From Clostridiales bacterium (GTDB lineage Bacteria; Bacillota; Clostridia; Christensenellales; Aristaeellaceae), in assembly GCA_022787165.1 (NCBI GenBank), contig JALFVL010000004.1:124001-188000 (forward strand): a stretch of DNA of 64,000 nucleotides. The letters are read 5' to 3'. A program made the translations under genes and the position numbers. The notes beneath the pieces were generated by a model. It saw only the letters and a list, made by a program, of their open reading frames with translations, ran no database searches and was not told the DNA's origin. Below are positions 5,980 through 35,672 of this stretch, piece after piece (positions within the stretch are counted from its first letter, which is position 1; each line of letters opens with the position of its first letter).

Positions 5980-6002
5980 TTGCTGTTTATTCTGTTCTCC
6001 AA

Positions 6003-6182
6003 TCAAATCGAGCATTCAGGATATTCGAAGACATGCATCCGTTCACTCCCTGACCGCTTTGCTGCGAGAGCTTCGCAGAAATGCATTGCCGCCCAGGCCT
6101 TTTCGATGAGGTCAGGCGCCAACGTCTGATAGCGCGGCAGGCGCTCCTGTGCAGATCGGCAACTCATCCCTGTCCGTGCCAT
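6003..6182 (-). CDS. Hypothetical 59-aa protein
   Basis: ATG at 6182 with GGAG 8 nt upstream; MARTGMSCRSAQERLPRYQTLAPDLIEKAWAAMHFCEALAAKRSGSERMHVFEYPECSI; terminator downstream. Confidence 0.45.
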   Translation of the reverse strand: MARTGMSCRSAQERLPRYQTLAPDLIEKAWAAMHFCEALAAKRSGSERMHVFEYPECSI

Positions 6183-6253
6183 GCTTTCTTCTCCGTTTTT
6201 GTTGTATTGTGTCTGCCTGTTGGCCGTTCGCTCATCGCGCCTGTCCAAGCGGT

Positions 6254-6790
6254 TCAGCCGTTCTCTTCGTTCGTCGGGTTTCCGGTCCGCCAGGATTTGA
6301 CCGCCGCTATCTGCGCGAAGGGCACATGGCAATAGCCGCCCGGGTGCTTATCCAGGTACTGTTGATGCGCCTCCTCCGCCGGATAAAAGCAGGCAAGCGG
6401 CAGGCATTCCACCACGACAGGCTTGTCAACCGACAATTGCAGCACCCGCAGCGATGCGCGGATGATCGCTTCATCCTCCACGTCAGCGTAGTAAACGCCC
6501 GTTCTGTATTGATGTCCGCAGTCGGGGCCCTGTCTGTCCAGCGCCGTCGGGTCAATGATCCGGTAAAAGAGCTCAAGCAGCTCGCGCAGCGTCAGGACAT
6601 CTGCGTCATACTCGACGCGAACGGTCTCCGCATGGCCCGTATCACCGTGCTTGACCTGTGCATAGCTCGGCGCAGCAACGCTGCCGTTGGCAAACCCAAC
6701 CTCGGTGTCGAGCACGCCGAAGATATTCGAAACGTATTTCTCCGTTCCCCAGTAGCAGCCGCCTGCCAGATAGATTGTCTTCCGTCTCAT
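6254..6790 (-). CDS. msrA: Peptide-methionine (S)-S-oxide reductase
   Basis: AGGCYWGTEKYV active-site motif, GDTGHAETVRVEYD, DPTALDRQGPDCGHQYRTGVYY. Confidence 0.93.
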   Translation of the reverse strand: MRRKTIYLAGGCYWGTEKYVSNIFGVLDTEVGFANGSVAAPSYAQVKHGDTGHAETVRVEYDADVLTLRELLELFYRIIDPTALDRQGPDCGHQYRTGVYYADVEDEAIIRASLRVLQLSVDKPVVVECLPLACFYPAEEAHQQYLDKHPGGYCHVPFAQIAAVKSWRTGNPTNEENG

Positions 6791-6936
6791 TCACGTTCCT
6801 CCTTGATCAGCGTCCGAAGACGCAGGTTCAGTATCGTTCCTCTTTCCATCCTGTCAACAGGTTTCATGTGCTTTCGTTCGTTGCAGGCCTCATCACAGCT
6901 TGACGCTCTCCCCTGCGCCGCTCTTTTCCAAGAAAA

Positions 6937-6989: not shown

Positions 6990-7811
6990 TTATCCCTTCA
7001 GGCCTCCTCTGGCGACGCCTCGCACGATATACTTGCGCGCAAAGAAGAACAGGATGATGACCGGCAGAACGACAACCGTCGAGGCCGCCATCAGCAGCTC
7101 GGGATACGATCCCGCCTCGGTCGTGAAGACCTGAAGACCCCACGGCAGCGTGCGGTTCTTGTCACTGGAGATAACGTACATGGGCCACATGAATGAGTTC
7201 CAGCTCGCCAGCGCGTTGAGCAGGATGATCGTCATCAGCGAGGGCCGCGCCATCGGCACCATGACCTTCCAGAGATACCGCCAGTTGCTCGAGCCGTCGA
7301 TCCTTGCCGACCAGTAGAGGCTGTCGGAGACGGAATCGAAGAAGTTCTTGAGGATATAGGTGTAGAAGATCGAGCTGGTGAACGGCAGGATCAGCGCCGG
7401 AATCGTGTCCCACAGCCCGAGATCGACAATGGTCGAATAGTTGGTGATGATGAGCATCTCGAAGGGGATCATCATCAGCGAGAGCAGCAGACCAAAGATC
7501 AGATTTCGCCCCGGGAAGCGGAGCCTGGAAAACGCGAACGCCGCCAGGATGGTTGTCAGCGTCGTCAGACCGACCGAGCAGACCATGACCACGATCGAGT
7601 TGACGAAATACTTGGCGAACGGCGCCATCTCGAACGCCCGGCGGAAATTATCCAGGCTCAGCCTGCCGGGCAGCCACTGTGGCGGAAACCGGTTGATCTC
7701 CTGCGTCGTCTTGAACGCCGAGGAAAACATCCAGAAGAACGGGAAGAGCATGATGACGCCGCCGATAATCAAAACGAAATAGACGAAAAACCGGGAAATC
7801 CTTCTCTTCAT
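6990..7811 (-). CDS. Carbohydrate ABC transporter permease (UgpE/MalG type)
   Basis: Multi-TM BPD-type permease with EAA-like loop (ARIDGSSNWRYLWKVMVPMARPSL); 273 aa. Confidence 0.9.
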   Translation of the reverse strand: MKRRISRFFVYFVLIIGGVIMLFPFFWMFSSAFKTTQEINRFPPQWLPGRLSLDNFRRAFEMAPFAKYFVNSIVVMVCSVGLTTLTTILAAFAFSRLRFPGRNLIFGLLLSLMMIPFEMLIITNYSTIVDLGLWDTIPALILPFTSSIFYTYILKNFFDSVSDSLYWSARIDGSSNWRYLWKVMVPMARPSLMTIILLNALASWNSFMWPMYVISSDKNRTLPWGLQVFTTEAGSYPELLMAASTVVVLPVIILFFFARKYIVRGVARGGLKG

Positions 7812-27786: not shown

Positions 27787-28377
27787 TTACGCCGACAGCC
27801 GCCTCGTGTACAGTGCGTTTGAAACACAGACGGAGCCAGCATTGACGGCGGCAGACGCTGCCAGCACGGCCAGCCAGACAGCCGTCAGCGCCTCGGTAGG
27901 CATCCCCTGTGTCGACTCGGCCAACACAAAATACGCTGCCATCTGCACGCCGATGGCCAGCAGATAGACCATTCTGCCCTTCTCCGTCCCCAGACGGAAC
28001 ATGATCGGCAGCACGATGCTCACGGCCAGCAGCGCCATCGCGACACTGGCAAGCATCAGCCACGCCGGCACGGCATAGCCCGGAAACAGGGCACTGCGCA
28101 CAAGCGCGACCATCAACGCAAATGCGATGCTCGCATAGCCGATCAGATACTTGTCTGTCACGCAGGCAAGCCCGCTGACCGGCATCGCGCTCAGCAGCCG
28201 CTCAAAGTGGGATCGCTCGTCATAGGCCAGGATGTTGACCGGCAGCATGAGCGAATAGATCATGGCGAACATGAGCTGATAGTCCGAGCCGAAGCCCGCC
28301 AGCAGCACCACAAGCGCGACATAAATCCATATCGTCTTGCGGATCGTCATCAGATCCTTATACAGGATTCCCTTCAA
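27787..28377 (-). CDS. ABC-2 type transporter permease
   Basis: Small multi-TM protein; overlaps the ATPase stop; GntR-ATPase-permease order. Confidence 0.75.
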   Translation of the reverse strand: MKGILYKDLMTIRKTIWIYVALVVLLAGFGSDYQLMFAMIYSLMLPVNILAYDERSHFERLLSAMPVSGLACVTDKYLIGYASIAFALMVALVRSALFPGYAVPAWLMLASVAMALLAVSIVLPIMFRLGTEKGRMVYLLAIGVQMAAYFVLAESTQGMPTEALTAVWLAVLAASAAVNAGSVCVSNALYTRRLSA

Positions 28378-29258
28378 GACAAAACCTCTCCCTTCTCCAG
28401 CAGCAGCATGACGTCCTCGATGCTCGTCCTGCCCGCCTCCATGTTTCCCGGCAGCAGGCCGCGTCTGGCCAGCACGCGCACGGCGCCGTGCGATCGCAGC
28501 ACGCGAAGCACGCAGGCCGGCTCGAGCTGGCGCAGGTCGTCCTCCCCGATCGTTATCACGGCGTATTCCTCGTCAAGCGCATCCTTCTCAGTGACCAGAA
28601 TGACCCGGCCCGCGTGCAGGAACACCAGATAGTCGCAGATCTTTTCCAAATCGGAGACGATGTGCGAGCTCATGAGGATCGAATGAGACGCGTCGCGCGT
28701 GTATTCGCACAGCAGGTCGAGAATCTCGTCCCGCACGACCGGGTCAAGGCCACCCGTCGCCTCGTCGAGCAGGAGCAGCTCGGCCCCGTGGCTGAGCGCG
28801 CAGGCGATGGCCAGCTTCATCTTCATCCCCCGTGAATAGTGTCTGACCGTCTTGTCCGCCGGGAGCGCGAAGCGGGTGCAAAGCGCTTCAAACGTCCCTT
28901 CCTCCCAGCCGCAGTAAATGCCCCGCATCATCCTGCCGATTTGCGGCGCGGTTAGCTCCTCCGGCAGACAGGCCTCATCCAGCACGACGCCCAGGCGCTG
29001 ACGCAGCTGCGCAAACGAGCGGCTCTGGTCCGCTTGCTGACCCAGCACGCGGATGCTTCCGCTGTCCGCGCGGCATGCCCCCAGCATCATGCGGATCAGC
29101 GTGCTTTTGCCCGCGCCGTTTTCGCCGATCAGCCCCAGCACACAGCCCGTCGGCAGCGAAAAGGAGACGTCGCTGAGCGCAAAATCACCGTAGCGCTTTT
29201 GCACATGCGCGAGCTCTATCGCGTTTTCCCCAACCCATTTTCCGTTTTCCAAGGTCAT
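28374..29258 (-). CDS. ABC transporter ATP-binding protein
   Basis: GLIGENGAGKSTLIRMMLG; YSRGMKMKLAIACALSHGAELLLLDEATGGLDP; start trimmed to ATG 29258. Confidence 0.92.
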   Translation of the reverse strand: MTLENGKWVGENAIELAHVQKRYGDFALSDVSFSLPTGCVLGLIGENGAGKSTLIRMMLGACRADSGSIRVLGQQADQSRSFAQLRQRLGVVLDEACLPEELTAPQIGRMMRGIYCGWEEGTFEALCTRFALPADKTVRHYSRGMKMKLAIACALSHGAELLLLDEATGGLDPVVRDEILDLLCEYTRDASHSILMSSHIVSDLEKICDYLVFLHAGRVILVTEKDALDEEYAVITIGEDDLRQLEPACVLRVLRSHGAVRVLARRGLLPGNMEAGRTSIEDVMLLLEKGEVLS

Positions 29259-29632
29259 TCCTCCTCCAGCCTGAGCGTTTGCAGCATCTCGCAAAGATCC
29301 TCGCCGCTCAGGCCGATCTGTGCGGCCAGCTGCGAAATCTGCTGCAAGTGGTCTTCAATTTTGCGCAGCACATCCTCCCGGAGCCATTCCGCATTGCGCT
29401 CGGCGACAAAGGAGCCCTTTCCGGCCGCCGTCACGATCAGCCCCTCGCGCTCCAGCTCGTCATAGGCCCGCTTGGTCGTGATCACGCTGATGCGCAGATC
29501 CTTGGCCAGCGAGCGGATCGAGGGGAGCATCTCCCCCGACACGAGCTCTCCGCTGACAATCTGCCGCTTGATCTGTGAGACAATCTGCTCATAGATCGGT
29601 TTGCCTGATGTATTGCTGATGATCAGATTCAC
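29255..29632 (-). CDS. GntR family transcriptional regulator (YtrA-like)
   Basis: GTG 29632; SNTSGKPIYEQIVSQIKRQIVSGELVSGEMLPSIRSLAKDLRISVITTKRAYDELEREGLI; 4-nt overlap with the ATPase. Confidence 0.92.
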   Translation of the reverse strand: MNLIISNTSGKPIYEQIVSQIKRQIVSGELVSGEMLPSIRSLAKDLRISVITTKRAYDELEREGLIVTAAGKGSFVAERNAEWLREDVLRKIEDHLQQISQLAAQIGLSGEDLCEMLQTLRLEEE

Positions 29633-29742
29633 ACGACGATTCCTCCCTTTCTTTGTCCGTTTTATCTGTTCATGTACAGTATATACAGTTGTTCCTCGCT
29701 TGTCAACATCGATTCTTCTTTTTTCGGAAGATAAAGACAATA

Positions 29743-29771
29743 TTGACATTCTGTCTCCATGCGGATATAAT
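29743..29771 (+). promoter_or_regulatory. Consensus promoter of the T-box operon
   Basis: TTGACA-N17-TATAAT. Confidence 0.9.
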
Positions 29772-29777
29772 ACAACC

Positions 29778-29985
29778 ATCAAACCGTTGACGCAGGAAAA
29801 AGTCAGATCCGGTTCGTCAAAGCGACGGGAGGGCGGTGAAAGCTCCCGACGGGCTCCTGAGCAATATGGTCTGCGGAGGGCGGCTCCTAATGGGCCGACG
29901 GCTGGACGGACGTTAACCGTCGCGGATATGATGGTATCCGGCTGAGGGGTCTTTGGGCCCGAATCAAGGTGGCACCGCGGAATCG
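29778..29985 (+). promoter_or_regulatory. T-box leader, candidate specifier UGG (Trp)
   Basis: AAGGTGGCACCGCGG (29966-29980) matches the T-box sequence; stem-I-like distal region GGGAGGGCGGTGAAAGCTCCC; TGG 29867-29869 followed by TCTGCGGAG. Confidence 0.85.
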
Positions 29986-30073
29986 ATGGATTTTCGCCCT
30001 TGAGCAATGCAACCGAATGTTGACATTGTGTCAATGGTGTTTTTGTTGTGTCTTGAAAAAGGAGGCTTTCAGA

Positions 30074-30994
30074 ATGGACAGCCGGCGCATCGTGATTCTC
30101 GGCGCGGGCCATGTCGGCAGCCATTGCGCCTACGCGCTTGCCGTGCAGGGCATCTGTGAGGAGATCGTCCTCGTGGATATCGTGCCCGGAAAGGCCGAGG
30201 CGCAGGCGCTCGACATCGCCGACAGCGTGAGCTTTTCGCCCCGGCCCGTCCGCGTGCGCGCCGGGGACTATGCGGACTGCGATGGCGCGGCGCTGATCGT
30301 CGTCGCCATCGGCGAGCCCCGCCTTCCCGGGCAGACGCGGCTCGATCTGCTGAGCCGGTCGGTCGAGCTGGTCAGGACGCTCGTCTCCCAGCTTCGCCCC
30401 TACACGATCCGCTGCCCGGTCGTCGCGATCACCAATCCCGTCGACATCGTTGCGGACTACCTGCGCAAGAGCCTCATGCTCGAGCGATGGCGATGCTTCG
30501 GCACCGGCACGCTGCTGGATACGGCGCGCCTCATCCGCATTCTCGCCCGCCGGGCTGGCGTTGCGCCGCAGAACGTCAGCGCCTTCGCCCTGGGCGAACA
30601 CGGCGATTCCTCGCTGGCCGCGCTCTCCTGCGCCAGCGCCGGCGGCCTCCCGTTTGAGGCGCTCGGCCTTGACCCGAATGCCATTATCGAAGAAACCCGC
30701 CGCGCCGGGATGGACATCATCATCGGCAAAGGCTCCACCGAATTCGGCATCGGGCGCTCGCTCGCTCTGCTTGCCGGATGTATCCTTCGCGACGAACACC
30801 GCATCCTTCCCGTCTCCGTCCAGCTGCTGGGCGAATACGGCCAAAGCGGTGTCGGCTGCGGTGTTCCCTGCCAGATTGGCGCAGAGGGCATCGAGCGCAT
30901 CATCGAGCTTCCGCTCTCCGACAGGGAGCGCGAGCAGCTTGCGCATTCCTGCTCCATCATCAAGCAGCATATTGACATGGCGTCCGCTCTGTGA
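30074..30994 (+). CDS. L-lactate/malate dehydrogenase family 2-hydroxyacid dehydrogenase
   Basis: VILGAGHVGSHCAYALAVQG; VAITNPVDIVADYLRK; GEHGDSSLAALS; ATG 30074 with GGAGG. Confidence 0.92.
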   Translation: MDSRRIVILGAGHVGSHCAYALAVQGICEEIVLVDIVPGKAEAQALDIADSVSFSPRPVRVRAGDYADCDGAALIVVAIGEPRLPGQTRLDLLSRSVELVRTLVSQLRPYTIRCPVVAITNPVDIVADYLRKSLMLERWRCFGTGTLLDTARLIRILARRAGVAPQNVSAFALGEHGDSSLAALSCASAGGLPFEALGLDPNAIIEETRRAGMDIIIGKGSTEFGIGRSLALLAGCILRDEHRILPVSVQLLGEYGQSGVGCGVPCQIGAEGIERIIELPLSDREREQLAHSCSIIKQHIDMASAL

Positions 30995-31021
30995 CGCCCA
31001 CAGAATCAGGAGGAAAAGAAA

Positions 31022-31981
31022 ATGAAAAAGCTCATCGCTCTCGTGATCGCCGTTCTCTCCCTGTCCCTCGTTCTCGCAGCCGCCTGCGCGCAGACCGTCG
31101 CCATCGTTCAGCCCATGAGCCATACCTCGCTGGATCAGATTCGGGAGACCATCGTCGCCAGGCTCACCGCCGACGGTTACACGGTCGTGACCGGCAACGC
31201 AAACGGCGATACGACCGCGCTGACGACGCTTCTTTCCAACTACGCCGCCGAGGGCATCGACCTGTTGATCCCGATTGCCACCTCGACCGCTCAGGCCGCC
31301 AAGACCGTCTTCGAGGGCACGAACACGCCGATCGTCTTCGCCGCCGTCTCCGATCCCGGCGCGGCCGGCATGACGGGCGAGGGCTGTGAGAACATCACGG
31401 GCGTCTCCAACAGCATCCCCGCTGCGGAAATCGTAAAGCTCATCTACGGCTTCCAGCCGGACTGCCAGAAGATCGGCTTCCTCTATACCTCCAGCGAGAC
31501 GAACTCCGTCTCCACGATCAACGCCGCCAAGGCCTACTGCGACGGCGAGGGCATCGCCTATGAGGAGGCCTCCATCGCCAACCTCTCCGAGCTGCAAACC
31601 GCCTGCGAAACCCTGATCTCCCGCGGCGTCGACGCCCTGTACACCGGCAACGACAACACCATTGCCTCCGCCATGGCGCTGTACACCGACACTGCCTATG
31701 CCGCAGGTATCCCCGTCTACTGCGGCGCGGATTCGATGGTCGCAGACGGCGGCTTCGCCACCATCGGCGTCAACTATGTCCAGCTGGGCGACCAGGTCGC
31801 CGCGCTGGCCGAGCAGATTCTCTCCGGTACCGCTCCCTCCGAACTCCCGTATGAGACGCTGAGCGAGTATGCGAAGTTCGTCAACCTGCAGGCGGCGGAC
31901 CGCTTTGGCGCCGATTTCCCTGAAAGCGCCTATGAAGGCTACTCCGTGCTCGTCGAGGCCGACGGAACGAGCCACTTCTGA
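31022..31981 (+). CDS. ABC transporter substrate-binding protein (ABC_sub_bind/TrpX-like)
   Basis: Signal peptide; IVQPMSHTSLDQIRETIVARL...PIVFAAVSDPGAAGM...ENITGVSNSIPAAEIVKLIYGFQPDCQKIGFLY. Confidence 0.9.
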   Translation: MKKLIALVIAVLSLSLVLAAACAQTVAIVQPMSHTSLDQIRETIVARLTADGYTVVTGNANGDTTALTTLLSNYAAEGIDLLIPIATSTAQAAKTVFEGTNTPIVFAAVSDPGAAGMTGEGCENITGVSNSIPAAEIVKLIYGFQPDCQKIGFLYTSSETNSVSTINAAKAYCDGEGIAYEEASIANLSELQTACETLISRGVDALYTGNDNTIASAMALYTDTAYAAGIPVYCGADSMVADGGFATIGVNYVQLGDQVAALAEQILSGTAPSELPYETLSEYAKFVNLQAADRFGADFPESAYEGYSVLVEADGTSHF

Positions 31982-32067
31982 TCCTCCTTACCCTTTCAGC
32001 CGCCCGTACGGCTTCCAGCCGCACGGGCGGCCTTTCCGCTCTGCCAAGTCCATCTCCATCGGAGGTT

Positions 32068-33030
32068 TTGATCACGGTGCTCTACCACATGTTCCTCTCC
32101 GCGCTCAGCCAGGGCCTGCTCTATGCGCCGATGGCGCTGGGCGTCTATGTGACCTTCTGCATCCTCAAGACGCCCGATCTGACTGTGGACGGAAGCTTCG
32201 TCTTCGGCATGACCGCCTGCGCCGCAGTCACCATCGCCGGCCATCCCTTCGCCGCGCTGCTCGTCGGCGCGGCCGCCGGCGCACTGGCCGGTCTGCTGAC
32301 CGCGCTGCTGCAAACCCGGCTGCGCATCGAGCCGATCCTCTCCGGCATTCTCGTCTCCACCGGGCTGTACACGGTCAATTTTGCCGTGCTCGGCGGCCAG
32401 TCGAATCTCTATCTGCAGTCTGCCGTCGTGAGCGAATCCGGCGCCGTGAGCAATGTCTCCAGCAAGACCGTCTATCGCCTCTTCGGCGCGCTGCCTGCCT
32501 GCTCGCAGGGCTTTCTCTCCGATGCAAACGCGCAGGTGCTTGTGCTGACGCTGCTCTTCGTCCTCCTGCTTGCCGCCCTCCTCTCCGTCTTCTTCTTCAC
32601 GCGCCCGGGTATGGCCATCCGCGCGACGGGCGACAACGAGGAGATGGTCCGCTCTTCCTCCATCAACGCCGACCGCATGCGCACGGCGGGCGTCATGCTC
32701 GCCAACGCGCTGGTCGCGCTCTCCGGCGCGCTGATCTGCCAGCAGCAGCGCTACGCCGACCTGAACTGCGGCAACGGCATGCTCGTCATGGGCCTCGCCT
32801 CCGTCATCATCGGCCAGGTGTTTTTCGGCCGGCGCGGCATCATTCTCGGGCTCATCGGCGCGGTCAGCGGTTCCCTGCTCTACCGCATCGTGCTGCAGGC
32901 CGCCTACAAGGTGAACATGCCCAGCTACGCCGTCAAGCTGCTCTCCGCGCTGATCGTCGTGGCGGCGCTCGCCATCCCGGCCGCGCGCAAGGCGCTGGCC
33001 CATCGCAGGAAAGGAGGCCACCGCGCATGA
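32068..33030 (+). CDS. ABC transporter permease (TrpY-like)
   Basis: TTG start with GGAGG; ALSQGLLYAPMALGVYVTFCILKTPDLTVDGSFVFGM; IRATGDNEEMVRSSSIN. Confidence 0.88.
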   Translation: MITVLYHMFLSALSQGLLYAPMALGVYVTFCILKTPDLTVDGSFVFGMTACAAVTIAGHPFAALLVGAAAGALAGLLTALLQTRLRIEPILSGILVSTGLYTVNFAVLGGQSNLYLQSAVVSESGAVSNVSSKTVYRLFGALPACSQGFLSDANAQVLVLTLLFVLLLAALLSVFFFTRPGMAIRATGDNEEMVRSSSINADRMRTAGVMLANALVALSGALICQQQRYADLNCGNGMLVMGLASVIIGQVFFGRRGIILGLIGAVSGSLLYRIVLQAAYKVNMPSYAVKLLSALIVVAALAIPAARKALAHRRKGGHRA

Positions 33031-33797
33031 GCAGCTCGCTTCAGATTCACGGCCTGACCAAGCGCTTTGAGGCCGGTACCATCAACGAAAAGCTCGCGCT
33101 TGACCATCTCGATCTCTCTGTCCCTGCCGGTCAGTTTGTGACCGTACTGGGCGCCAACGGCTCCGGAAAGACGACGCTCTTCAACCTGATTCTGGGCAAG
33201 ATGCTCCCCGACGAGGGGCAAATCCTGCTGGGCGAGGAGGATATCACCTATCAGAAGGACTACCGCCGCGCGCTCAATATCGGATGCCTGTTCCAGAATC
33301 CGCTGCGCGGCACGGCGCCCAACATGACGCTGGAGGAAAATCTTGCGCTCGCCTATACGCGCAAGGCCTCGCGCTCCTTCTTCGCCGTCAACCGCAGGGA
33401 CAACGCCTTCTTCCGCGACCAGCTTGCGCAGCTGGGCATGGGCCTGGAGGACAGGATGAAGACCCGCATGGGCCTGCTTTCCGGCGGTCAGCGGCAGGCG
33501 GCCTCCCTGCTCATGGCCACCATCGCCAGGCCGAACCTGCTGCTGCTTGATGAGCACACCGCCGCACTCGACCCCGGCGCCGCGGAAAAGGTCATGGCCG
33601 TCACGATGGAGATCACCGCTCGCGAGCGCATCACGACGCTGATGATCACGCACAACATGGAAAACGCGCTTCGCGCCGGCAGCCGCACGATTCTGCTCAG
33701 CGGCGGCCGCATCGCGCTCGACCTCACCGGCAGTAAGCGCGCTCGCATGACCTCCGGCACGCTGGCGGAAATCTTCTACGGCGGGCGCGCCGGATAA
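33027..33797 (+). CDS. ABC transporter ATP-binding protein (TrpZ-like)
   Basis: GANGSGKTTLFNLILG; LLSGGQRQAASLLMATIARPNLLLLDEHTAALDP; overlaps the permease stop. Confidence 0.92.
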   Translation: MSSSLQIHGLTKRFEAGTINEKLALDHLDLSVPAGQFVTVLGANGSGKTTLFNLILGKMLPDEGQILLGEEDITYQKDYRRALNIGCLFQNPLRGTAPNMTLEENLALAYTRKASRSFFAVNRRDNAFFRDQLAQLGMGLEDRMKTRMGLLSGGQRQAASLLMATIARPNLLLLDEHTAALDPGAAEKVMAVTMEITARERITTLMITHNMENALRAGSRTILLSGGRIALDLTGSKRARMTSGTLAEIFYGGRAG

Positions 33798-33814
33798 ACG
33801 CATTTCCCCGGACG

Positions 33815-33846
33815 GGGCCTCCGGCAGAACCCGGCGGCCCTGTTTT
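33815..33846 (+). terminator. Terminator of the T-box operon
   Basis: GGGCC-T-CCGG-CAGAAC-CCGG-C-GGCCC then TGTTTTT. Confidence 0.75.
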
Positions 33847-33962: not shown

Positions 33963-34757
33963 ATGAAAAAGAAACTGGCCATCGCCGGCTGCGGCTTCCT
34001 GGGCGGCATCGTCGCCGATGCCTATGCGCAGGGGCTGCTGAGCGATTATGAGCTTGTCGGCGTCACCAGCCGCACGCGCGAGGATGCCGTGCAGACCGCA
34101 AGGCACACTGGCTGTGCCGTCTGCGAGGACACCGCCGCTCTGCTCACGTTGAAACCTGATATCGTCGTGGAGACCGCCTCCGTCGAGTGGGTGCGCGAAA
34201 ACGCCGAAGCCGTCCTGCGCAGCGGCGTCGATCTGGTCGTGATCTCCATCGGCGCGTTTGCCGATCTCGAGCTGTACGAGCGCGCAAAGCAGGCGGCCGT
34301 GGAGAGCGGCGCGAGGATTCATCTCGCCTCCGGCGCCATCGGCGGCTTTGACGTCCTGCAGACCGTCTCGCTGATGGCCAGGGCGCAGGGGCTTGATGAA
34401 ACCGCCGGCATCGAGACGCATACCGGCTGCAAGGGCTTCATGCCCACCCCGGTCTGGGACGACATCCTGCTCACGGAGCAGAAGACCGTCTTCACCGGCA
34501 ACGCCAAGGAGGCAATCGCTACCTTCCCCCGCCGCGTGAACGTCGCAGTCGCCACTTCCCTTGCGACCACGGGCCCGGAGGTCACCGGCGTGACGATGCA
34601 CAGCGTGCCGAACTGGCAGGGCGACGATCACAGGATCACCGCCGAGATTGACGGCGTCAAAGCCGTCGTCGACATCTATTCGAGAACCAGCGCCATCGCG
34701 GGCTGGAGCGTCGTCGCGCTGCTGCGCAACCTCGCCTCCCCGGTGTGCTTTTATTGA
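33963..34757 (+). CDS. Aspartate dehydrogenase-like (NadX/DUF108) oxidoreductase
   Basis: KLAIAGCGFLGGIVADAY; IVVETASVEWVRENAEAVL; HLASGAIGGFDVLQ. Confidence 0.8.
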   Translation: MKKKLAIAGCGFLGGIVADAYAQGLLSDYELVGVTSRTREDAVQTARHTGCAVCEDTAALLTLKPDIVVETASVEWVRENAEAVLRSGVDLVVISIGAFADLELYERAKQAAVESGARIHLASGAIGGFDVLQTVSLMARAQGLDETAGIETHTGCKGFMPTPVWDDILLTEQKTVFTGNAKEAIATFPRRVNVAVATSLATTGPEVTGVTMHSVPNWQGDDHRITAEIDGVKAVVDIYSRTSAIAGWSVVALLRNLASPVCFY

Positions 34758-34769
34758 GGAGGGGCTTTC

Positions 34770-35672
34770 ATGTTTCGCAAGCTGGTCGCCATCGAGCCCG
34801 TCAGCCTGATTCCCTCCGCCGAGGAAAAGCTGCATGACTACGCCCGCGAGGTCGTCCTCTATCGCGACGTGCCCGCGGATGACGAGGAGATTCTGCGCCG
34901 CATCGCCGATGCAGACGCTGTCCTCGTCAGCTACACCTCCCGCATCACCCGCTCCGTCATCGAGCGCTGCCCAAACGTCCGCTACATCGGCATGTGCTGC
35001 TCCCTCTACTCCGAGGAGAGCGCCAACGTCGATATCGCCTGCGCGCGCGAGCATGGCATCCGCGTGCTGGGTATCCGCGACTACGGCGACCGCGGTGTCG
35101 TCGAATATGTTCTGCATGAGCTCACCGGCCTTCTGCACGGCTTCGGCATGCCGATGCTGCGCGACGAGCCGGTCGAGATCACGGGGCTTCGCGTCGGCAT
35201 CGTCGGCCTCGGCGTTTCCGGCCGCATGATTGCAGACGCGCTCGCGTTCATGGGCGCGCAGATCAGCTACTACGCCCGCGCCCCCAAGGCGGATGCGGAG
35301 GCGGCAGGCTATGTCTTTAAGCCGCTTGACACGCTGCTGCGCGAGAGTGAGGTCGTCTTTACCTGCCTCAACAAAAACGTCCTGCTGCTCCAGGAGGCGC
35401 AGTTTGCAGCGCTGGGCGACCACAAGGTGCTCTTCAATACCTCCATCGGTCCCGGCTTTGATGCCAAAGCGCTCGACGCGTGGGTTCGCCGCCCCGGCAA
35501 CCGCTTCTTCTGCGATACAAAGGCCGCAGCGGGCGACGTCAGCGCAGACTTCTTCGATCTTCCCTCCGTCCGCTGCCCGGCCATCTCCGCCGGCAGGACG
35601 AAGCAGGCGTTTGTCCTGCTAAGCCAAAAGGTGCTCGCCAACATCGAGACCGCGCTTTCCGATATGCAATGA
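34770..35672 (+). CDS. D-isomer-specific 2-hydroxyacid dehydrogenase family protein
   Basis: GLRVGIVGLGVSGRMIADALAFMGAQISYYARAPK NAD-binding motif; VLFNTSIGPGFD. Confidence 0.85.
   Translation: MFRKLVAIEPVSLIPSAEEKLHDYAREVVLYRDVPADDEEILRRIADADAVLVSYTSRITRSVIERCPNVRYIGMCCSLYSEESANVDIACAREHGIRVLGIRDYGDRGVVEYVLHELTGLLHGFGMPMLRDEPVEITGLRVGIVGLGVSGRMIADALAFMGAQISYYARAPKADAEAAGYVFKPLDTLLRESEVVFTCLNKNVLLLQEAQFAALGDHKVLFNTSIGPGFDAKALDAWVRRPGNRFFCDTKAAAGDVSADFFDLPSVRCPAISAGRTKQAFVLLSQKVLANIETALSDMQ

Follow-up and report, generated by a model that had tools for sequence, protein, structure and literature searches.

A tryptophan T-box operon that pairs a lactate dehydrogenase-family enzyme with a TrpXYZ-like importer in Clostridia, and its possible role in indole-3-lactate salvage

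We analyzed an operon in a 64,000-nucleotide stretch of a Clostridiales genome (GCA_022787165.1, contig JALFVL010000004.1, positions 124,001 to 188,000; hereafter, the window) in which a T-box leader precedes genes for a dehydrogenase and the three components of an ABC importer, with a terminator closing the set (Table 1). The gene calls of an earlier reading made from the letters alone (hereafter, the sequence-only reading), namely an LDH/MDH-family dehydrogenase, an ABC_sub_bind protein, a permease and an ATPase, held at the level of families, while NCBIfam equivalog cut-offs were missed slightly by the dehydrogenase for L-LDH and widely by the binding protein for TrpX. The consensus promoter that it had noted is a perfect one, and shuffles gave an expectation of 0.9 promoter-like sites weaker than this one across the whole region. 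The terminator it had placed at 33815 coincides with a stable predicted hairpin ahead of a U run, which was missing from the list of a simple consensus scan of the whole region. The permease may instead start at a GTG at about 32077.

Table 1 Features of the operon in the window (positions are those of the window).
Feature	Position	Strand	Basis
Sigma-70 promoter, TTGACA-17-TATAAT	29743..29771	+	12/12 consensus matches
T-box riboswitch leader, stem I to antiterminator	29778..30004	+	RF00230 match; kept ahead of orthologous operons
Specifier codon UGG (Trp)	29867..29869	+	Comparison of leaders from orthologous operons
T-box sequence with UGGC bulge	29966..29980	+	UGGC pairs with discriminator G of own tRNA-Trp(CCA)
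Intrinsic terminator hairpin, then U run; exclusive with antiterminator	29995..30040	+	Predicted folding energies
LDH/MDH-superfamily dehydrogenase	30074..30994	+	Pfam Ldh_1_N/Ldh_1_C; family alignment
ABC_sub_bind TrpX-like substrate-binding protein, Asn130 at TrpX Asp152 position	31022..31981	+	PF04392, E 4.7 × 10−55
ABC permease BPD_transp_2, TrpY-like position	32068..33030	+	Pfam PF02653, synteny
ABC ATPase, TrpZ-like position	33030..33797	+	Pfam PF00005, synteny
Terminator ending operon	33809..33845	+	Hairpin −25.2 kcal/mol, then UGUUUUU

The leader matched the T-box model RF00230 over its full length (positions 1–219 of 219) with 64 bits, at E = 8.9 × 10−14 when 401 bases were compared with all Rfam families and E = 1.3 × 10−13 in a search of the whole genome, which bears out the T-box call of the sequence-only reading, as does the T-box sequence, found exactly where it had been placed. 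The leader is absent from a default Rfam scan because its score falls under the curated cut-off of 93 bits, a threshold passed by only 3 of the 18 T-boxes in this genome; 14 of the 17 others also lie below it, most of them before the gene predicted by their specifier. Predicted energies, on which the proposed switch is based, were −17.5 kcal/mol for the leader terminator (8 of 500 shuffles were equally stable) and −12.5 kcal/mol for the antiterminator alone; the two hairpins overlap, with the segment CGCCCUUGA common to both. Folded alone, the whole leader had an uninformative z of −1.3.

We assign the specifier to UGG because relatives keep this triplet: each of the 42 leaders taken from orthologous operons has it in the same position, whereas the overlapping frames vary. 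Its spacing is consistent with that of T-boxes of known target in the same genome, and the discriminator base is G in the genome’s own tRNA-Trp(CCA) and A in its tRNA-Tyr and tRNA-Met. The candidate TGG of the sequence-only reading is thereby upheld. Two other placements were considered and rejected: UAU, suggested with low posterior by the Rfam column placement, becomes UCU in two of the leaders (L080 and L124), and AUG becomes CUG in the same two; the tRNAs that these codons would call for carry the A discriminator.

There is therefore firm support for a Trp-specific T-box that governs both the LDH-family dehydrogenase and the TrpXYZ-like importer, and the operon is a variation on the known T-box/TrpXYZ theme. 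The streptococcal trpXYZ operon (S. suis TrpX, S. pneumoniae SP1069) likewise unites a UGG T-box, ABC_sub_bind and BPD_transp_2 proteins and an ATPase (PMC9382623), whereas the operon in the window begins with a dehydrogenase and encodes a binding protein that has Asn for Asp152, further pocket changes and a score under the TrpX cut-off. The order of T-box, LDH-family dehydrogenase, TrpX-like binding protein, permease and ATPase recurs across many Clostridia, including Anaerobutyricum hallii, Pseudoflavonifractor, Anaeromassilibacillus and many uncultured members, and Spirochaetes have an equivalent gene order without the T-box. All T-boxes found on operons of this kind specify Trp, none Phe or Tyr. 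A search of the open-access literature returned no matching precedent, neither for an LDH-like gene within a T-box operon nor for T-box-controlled indolelactate salvage, which is weak evidence of novelty.

The binding protein, whose nearest solved structures are 3lft, 6hni and 3lkv, scored 228 bits against the TrpX model NF041285 (equivalog cut-off 390). In place of the ligand-contacting Asp152 of TrpX and the Trp-selecting Gln273/Gln284 it has Asn and Tyr (PMC9382623, PMC6816091). Three related proteins were crystallized with Trp, Tyr or Phe (PMC6816091), and the position of the Trp-favoring Gln284 of SP1069, Tyr in the window protein, is also Tyr in the Phe- and Tyr-binding relatives. Two proteins of that paper, the C. 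difficile tyrosine-binding protein CD0873 and the V. cholerae protein VC_1101, share the fold family and ligand-site framework but keep the Asp, and the portion available mentions no linked dehydrogenase for either. The Tyr counts against the indolelactate reading, though a paralog in the same genome, under a UGG T-box, also has Tyr at the Gln284 position.

The Asp-to-Asn change tracks neighboring dehydrogenases. Asn occupies the position in all 18 subfamily-A and all 9 Syntrophomonas-type proteins of the tree set, every one dehydrogenase-linked, while Asp is kept in 64 of 64 sampled relatives with no neighboring dehydrogenase. Counting against salvage, Asp is also retained by subfamily-B importers, although an LDH-type gene is located close to them. 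Outside the two Asn groups, all five sampled Asn-type proteins are encoded directly behind an Fe-ADH/GldA-type dehydrogenase, with a UGG T-box in two of the five operons. The enzyme in such operons (L271–L274) is unrelated in fold to the window dehydrogenase and falls under the GldA and PRK10586 (YbdH) cut-offs, although the pairing of a dehydrogenase with a modified importer, twice under a Trp T-box, is the same. The two dehydrogenase types occur in tandem in one locus (L146), another (L188) has a UGG T-box ahead of an Asn-type importer, and in L143 a single Trp T-box stands before an ordinary Asp-type TrpXYZ set, followed 105 bases on by the dehydrogenase and an Asn-type set. In an independent-pairs test against the dehydrogenase, the tree held only two Asp-to-Asn events, too few for a formal test of the association. 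An S. pyogenes TrpX-like protein whose ligand is not stated also has Asn at 152 (PMC9382623), so Asn alone is no proof of a hydroxy-acid ligand.

From these sequence features (T-box and specifier, operon structure and conservation, pocket change, dehydrogenase association) we infer a ligand, a substrate, a direction of reaction and a final transamination. Uncharged tRNA-Trp would pair through its anticodon with the stem I UGG and through its GCCA end with the antiterminator UGGC; this would keep the leader terminator from forming and allow transcription of the genes for dehydrogenase and importer. The importer is related to TrpXYZ, but its binding protein has lost the Asp presumed to hold the alpha-amino group, and its probable cargo is therefore a 2-hydroxy (or 2-oxo) aromatic analogue and not the amino acid itself. 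The dehydrogenase would oxidize this 2-hydroxy acid to the corresponding 2-oxo acid, from which a general aminotransferase would make Trp; the likeliest substrate is L-indole-3-lactate, with an aryl-lactate mixture possible. We hold with moderate confidence that the operon responds to Trp starvation by importing and oxidizing a 2-hydroxy acid, most likely indole-3-lactate, to yield Trp. Two facts favor salvage, the Asn-for-Asp change and the unrelated Fe-ADH/GldA-type dehydrogenase behind the other Asn group. The regulatory half of the salvage interpretation in the sequence-only reading (Trp T-box, importer, dehydrogenase) thus stands; its metabolic half, import, oxidation and transamination of indolelactate, gains indirect support from synteny, the pocket, the second, non-homologous dehydrogenase, L143 and the missing trpB and trpC, with Arg102 of the dehydrogenase pointing the other way.

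Ten subfamily-B loci, in which a related dehydrogenase lies directly behind the gene for DAHP synthase, an enzyme that serves all three aromatic amino acids, are consistent with a more general aryl-lactate salvage, as is the Tyr at the side-chain position. Phenyllactate, 4-hydroxyphenyllactate and indolelactate would then be handled alike, with control by Trp only because it is scarcer than the other aromatic amino acids; given that every T-box found on such operons specifies Trp, we consider this rather unlikely. It is very improbable that the importer carries Trp itself while the dehydrogenase reduces arylpyruvate to aryl-lactate for redox balance or excretion. That TrpXYZ systems controlled by Trp T-boxes import Trp is established (PMC9382623), reduction of 2-oxo acids is the usual direction for LDH-type enzymes, and the Bifidobacterium aromatic lactate dehydrogenase makes aryl-lactates (PMC8556157); however, spending the Trp skeleton would be ill-timed during Trp starvation, neither the altered pocket nor the use of another dehydrogenase type in equivalent operons would be accounted for, and this genome already has a second TrpXYZ-like set, whose pocket is unchanged and which has a Trp T-box of its own.

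In the family alignment the window dehydrogenase has the catalytic residues R109, D168, R171 and H195 of a 2-hydroxy-acid dehydrogenase intact, which counts for salvage. The closest solved structures are L-LDHs, with MDHs scoring lower, and the enzyme resembles canonical NAD-dependent L-LDH (Ldh_1) in its best-scoring family as well. It reached 295.6 bits against TIGR01771 (NAD-dependent L-lactate dehydrogenase; cut-off 303.55), which some family members pass (L126, 324 bits; L188, 341 bits), and stayed below the LDH-like MDH models PRK06223 (247.5 versus 283) and TIGR01763 (194 versus 351.85). Whereas canonical L-LDH has Gln102 and the motif KGATYYGIA, the window enzyme has Arg102, Gly236 as in MDHs, and KGSTEFGIG, with a deletion of ~11 residues before the helix bearing that motif. 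Arg102 is present in all known MDHs (PMC4109310), and among the checked members of the window enzyme's family only L145 (Pro) lacks it; an aromatic hydroxy-acid dehydrogenase regained oxaloacetate activity once Arg102 was restored (PMC9299796). Because specificity position 102 is Arg, the MDH residue, an aromatic substrate is unproven, and the label ‘LDH/MDH-like’ by itself predicts none. This counter-evidence had escaped the sequence-only reading.

A malate dehydrogenase acting on a dicarboxylate, placed in the operon to meet carbon or redox needs in amino-acid starvation, would suit the nearly invariant Arg102 and the MDH-like Gly236, but it is a highly doubtful alternative in view of the L-LDH-like nearest structures, the lack of a route from malate to Trp supply, the Fe-ADH-type swap in parallel operons, which it leaves unexplained, and L145, which keeps its T-box and importer with Pro at 102. 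Enzymes of the LDH/MDH superfamily that act on aryl-pyruvates include, according to the available texts, the Bifidobacterium aromatic lactate dehydrogenase (PMC8556157), likened here by description rather than sequence, and the phenyllactate dehydrogenase FrsC (PMC9299796), which has a loop insertion and Ser102 where the window enzyme has Arg102; those texts mention neither T-box nor importer.

We are evenly divided on the broader proposal that this is an undescribed route under Trp T-box control, widespread among gut Clostridia, that makes Trp out of extracellular indole-3-lactate and employs a hydroxy-acid-selective TrpXYZ branch and two unrelated dehydrogenases, perhaps one per enantiomer. 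Infant-gut bifidobacteria produce indole-3-lactate and other aryl-lactates (PMC8556157); if the proposal is true, common gut Clostridia that take up indole-3-lactate and turn it into Trp would be linked to its producers by cross-feeding and would act as a sink for a bioactive metabolite, one TrpX-like residue may help to separate amino-acid from hydroxy-acid importers, and the hydroxy acid may be enough to sustain bacteria whose genomes are scored as Trp auxotrophs. The host, a gut bacterium, itself seems unable to make Trp, trpB and trpC (IGPS) being absent from its genome. Two observations weigh against salvage. Within the genus, trpB was missing from all five operon carriers and from 15 of 24 other genomes, an association that was not significant, and some carriers elsewhere, such as A. 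hallii, retain IGPS.

The operon varies the T-box/TrpXYZ arrangement already known and does not represent a separate kind of system; our search of the open-access literature found no published description of such an operon. Its T-box is real. The covariance model RF00230 matched the leader over its full length with 64 bits (E = 8.9e-14; 1.3e-13 genome-wide), a score below the Rfam curated cut-off, which is why a default Rfam scan does not list it; only 3 of the 18 matches to the model in this genome exceed that cut-off. The specifiers of these T-boxes agreed with the downstream gene wherever it was recognisable, the names being read off translations with no database behind them: Leu (leuA), Met (a cystathionine-synthase-type gene plus a metA-like gene, and also metS), Phe (pheS), Cys (cysE/cysS), Tyr (tyrS), Val (valS and ilvB), Ile (ileS), Ala (alaS) and Thr (thrS). 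A promoter scan of the window returned a perfect sigma-70 promoter, and past the ATPase gene lies a hairpin that folds at -25 kcal/mol and is followed by a U run, so that the promoter, T-box and closing terminator of the sequence-only reading all held up, as did its four genes. A second hairpin, in the leader, uses the same 5' arm as the antiterminator, which points to transcription attenuation as the most likely mode of control.

Features of the operon, its flanks and loci compared with it
Feature	Sequence	Positions	Strand
Putative GntR-type regulator, ABC ATPase, likely membrane partner	window	27787-29641	-
Promoter of this divergent set	window	29706-29678	-
Sigma-70 promoter	window	29743-29771	
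T-box (RF00230 match)	window	29778-30004	+
Specifier UGG	window	29867-29869	+
Leader hairpin with U run	window	29995-30040	+
LDH-family dehydrogenase	window	30074-30994	+
Binding protein	window	31022-31981	+
Possible lipobox Cys	window	31022-31080	
Permease	window	32068-33030	+
ATPase	window	33030-33797	+
Closing terminator	window	near 33815	
Aspartate-dehydrogenase-like and D-2-hydroxyacid-dehydrogenase-family genes	window	33963-35672	
Two further importer sets	L089 (own genome, contig C9)	190-5805	
Split binding-protein or permease gene	L081 (relative)	7458-7524	
Ortholog lacking Arg102	L145 (relative)	6001-6900	

The stem I spacing of this genome's T-boxes gives UGG as the specifier, the candidate codon of the sequence-only reading. 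Because this spacing is not constant, shifting by about one base from one T-box to another, and is insufficient alone, relatives were brought in. A whole-genome search found the same operon behind a T-box in four, with the specifier regions AAUAUGGUCUGCGGAG, AAUCUGGUCUGCUGAG, GAAUGGACUUUUGAG and GAAUGGACUUUGGAG, and UGG occupied the same place in 42 of 42 leaders from these and a GTDB genome scan, in a pattern search that demanded TGG near GAG, a chance match uncommon at leader size, and whose hits fell at one site. The UAU and AUG readings, which overlap UGG, were lost in several of the 42 leaders and were rejected. Rfam alignments of five relatives' leaders (L080, L081, L082, L116 and L186) agree with UGG. 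The T-box bulge, UGGC, calls for a G discriminator, which the genome's tRNA-Trp(CCA) has; its tRNA-Tyr and tRNA-Met genes have A. Control of the operon by uncharged tRNA-Trp is established as firmly as sequence evidence allows.

The GTDB scan, which used an alignment of six orthologs, returned 342 relatives, 80 of which were fetched. Those with roughly 52% identity or more (subfamily A) nearly always have the dehydrogenase gene first, then the genes for binding protein, permease and ATPase in that order, mostly with a T-box motif in front. Spirochaetes, including three genomes or bins (L139, L148 and L151), have the whole operon with no recognisable T-box motif, suggesting transfer with control lost or replaced. 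In the Syntrophomonas-type group dehydrogenase and importer are convergent, one importer (L188) lying under its own UGG T-box. In subfamily B (Eubacterium-type) the importer is more distant, and in ten loci (L154, L161, L164, L165, L167, L171, L173, L177, L178 and L185) a DAHP synthase gene lies directly upstream, about 1.1 kb before the dehydrogenase; Rfam scans of three of the ten found no T-box. Binding-protein or permease genes are split across frames in L081, L116 and L119, which could be decay or metagenome-bin assembly errors.

The importer comprises a TrpX-like ABC_sub_bind protein, a BPD_transp_2 permease and an ABC ATPase. Crystal relatives of the binding protein hold Trp (3LFT), Tyr (6HNI) and Phe (3LKV), gripping the ligand amino and acid groups in a common way (PMC6816091), and Asp152 of S. 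suis TrpX belongs to the conserved residues of the ligand site (PMC9382623). Asp is the rule at this position across 291 genomes sampled from the class, and is found in 3/3 crystal relatives and both own-genome paralogs; the window protein (Asn130) and all subfamily-A proteins covering that stretch have Asn, together with further changes, to NDN next to conserved Asn233 and to GADSM close to the side-chain site. From its chemistry, Asp152 would hold the ligand alpha-amino group. In the tree set, all 64 binding proteins that lack a dehydrogenase neighbour have Asp (flanks of about 1.5-2 kb inspected), and every Asn-type protein was dehydrogenase-linked (18 in subfamily A, 9 Syntrophomonas-type, 5 others). 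The thirteen subfamily-B proteins keep Asp despite a nearby LDH-type gene, so a nearby dehydrogenase is not always paired with Asn; within subfamily B, most of the DAHP synthase loci have Asp-type importers close by. By parsimony the Asn state arose twice, each time with a dehydrogenase present, a pattern that is suggestive and short of statistical proof. At L143 one UGG T-box precedes an Asp-type set, and a dehydrogenase and Asn-type set begin 105 bases past its ATPase. A point against a Trp-like ligand is that the window protein has Tyr at the position of SP1069 Gln284, where Tyr should obstruct side chains as large as that of Trp (PMC6816091), but an own-genome paralog under a UGG T-box carries Tyr there too.

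The dehydrogenase belongs to the LDH/MDH superfamily, with L-lactate dehydrogenases as nearest solved structures; it scores slightly below the L-LDH equivalog cut-off and far below malate dehydrogenase cut-offs, and retains the catalytic residues R109, D168, R171 and H195. Position 102 is Arg instead of Gln, and the family signature is KGSTEFGIG with R102 and G236. Arg102 occurs in all known malate dehydrogenases and Gln102 in canonical LDHs (PMC4109310). In aromatic-specific members the residue is Ala or Ser, and Arg102 restored oxaloacetate activity to one of them (PMC9299796). This likeness to malate dehydrogenases counts against an aromatic substrate, but position 102 alone is not decisive, other residues mattering strongly according to the same literature (PMC4109310/PMC9299796). 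In this family an invariant Glu replaces Tyr beside T246 and might, speculatively, alter the site. L145 alone lacks R102, with Pro in its place, an altered KGSTEFGIG, and T-box and importer intact; its enzyme is either changed or decaying, and makes this locus a natural experiment on whether Arg102 is required.

All five other Asn-type proteins are preceded by a 366-residue Fe-ADH/GldA-type protein, whose closest named models, GldA and PRK10586 (E. coli YbdH), are both under cut-off. YbdH is reportedly a hydroxycarboxylate dehydrogenase. Two of these operons (L271 and L272) lie behind strong T-boxes that score 106.5 and 98.2 bits and have UGG as their specifier, and in L146 the Fe-ADH-type gene directly follows the LDH-type gene. 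Asn-type importers thus stand beside two unrelated folds under one amino-acid signal. On balance we favour import and oxidation of a Trp-related 2-hydroxy acid, most simply indole-3-lactate, as the reading that best explains why the importer is altered, why two kinds of dehydrogenase occur with it and why they share a T-box signal. Neither trpB nor IGPS was found in the own genome (90% complete), nor IGPS in two other operon-bearing isolates, Pseudoflavonifractor An901 and Anaeromassilibacillus An200; operon-bearing A. hallii and Youngiibacter retain IGPS. A supply route that begins with a Trp analogue taken up from outside would be sensible physiologically, but within the genus the link between operon and trpB loss was not significant.

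The own genome holds two further TrpX-like binding-protein/permease/ATPase sets, facing each other, which look like its ordinary aromatic amino acid importers; one (L089b) has a UGG T-box (L010) in front of it and retains Asp152. The possible lipobox Cys is shared with L079 and absent from L080-L082, which keep a signal-peptide-like start (A2 alignment columns 1-30), so lipid anchoring seems not to be conserved. The two genes directly past the operon probably form a separate transcript, with a possible link to hydroxy-acid metabolism. The divergent set upstream, whose GntR-type assignment comes from translation only, has a good promoter of its own.
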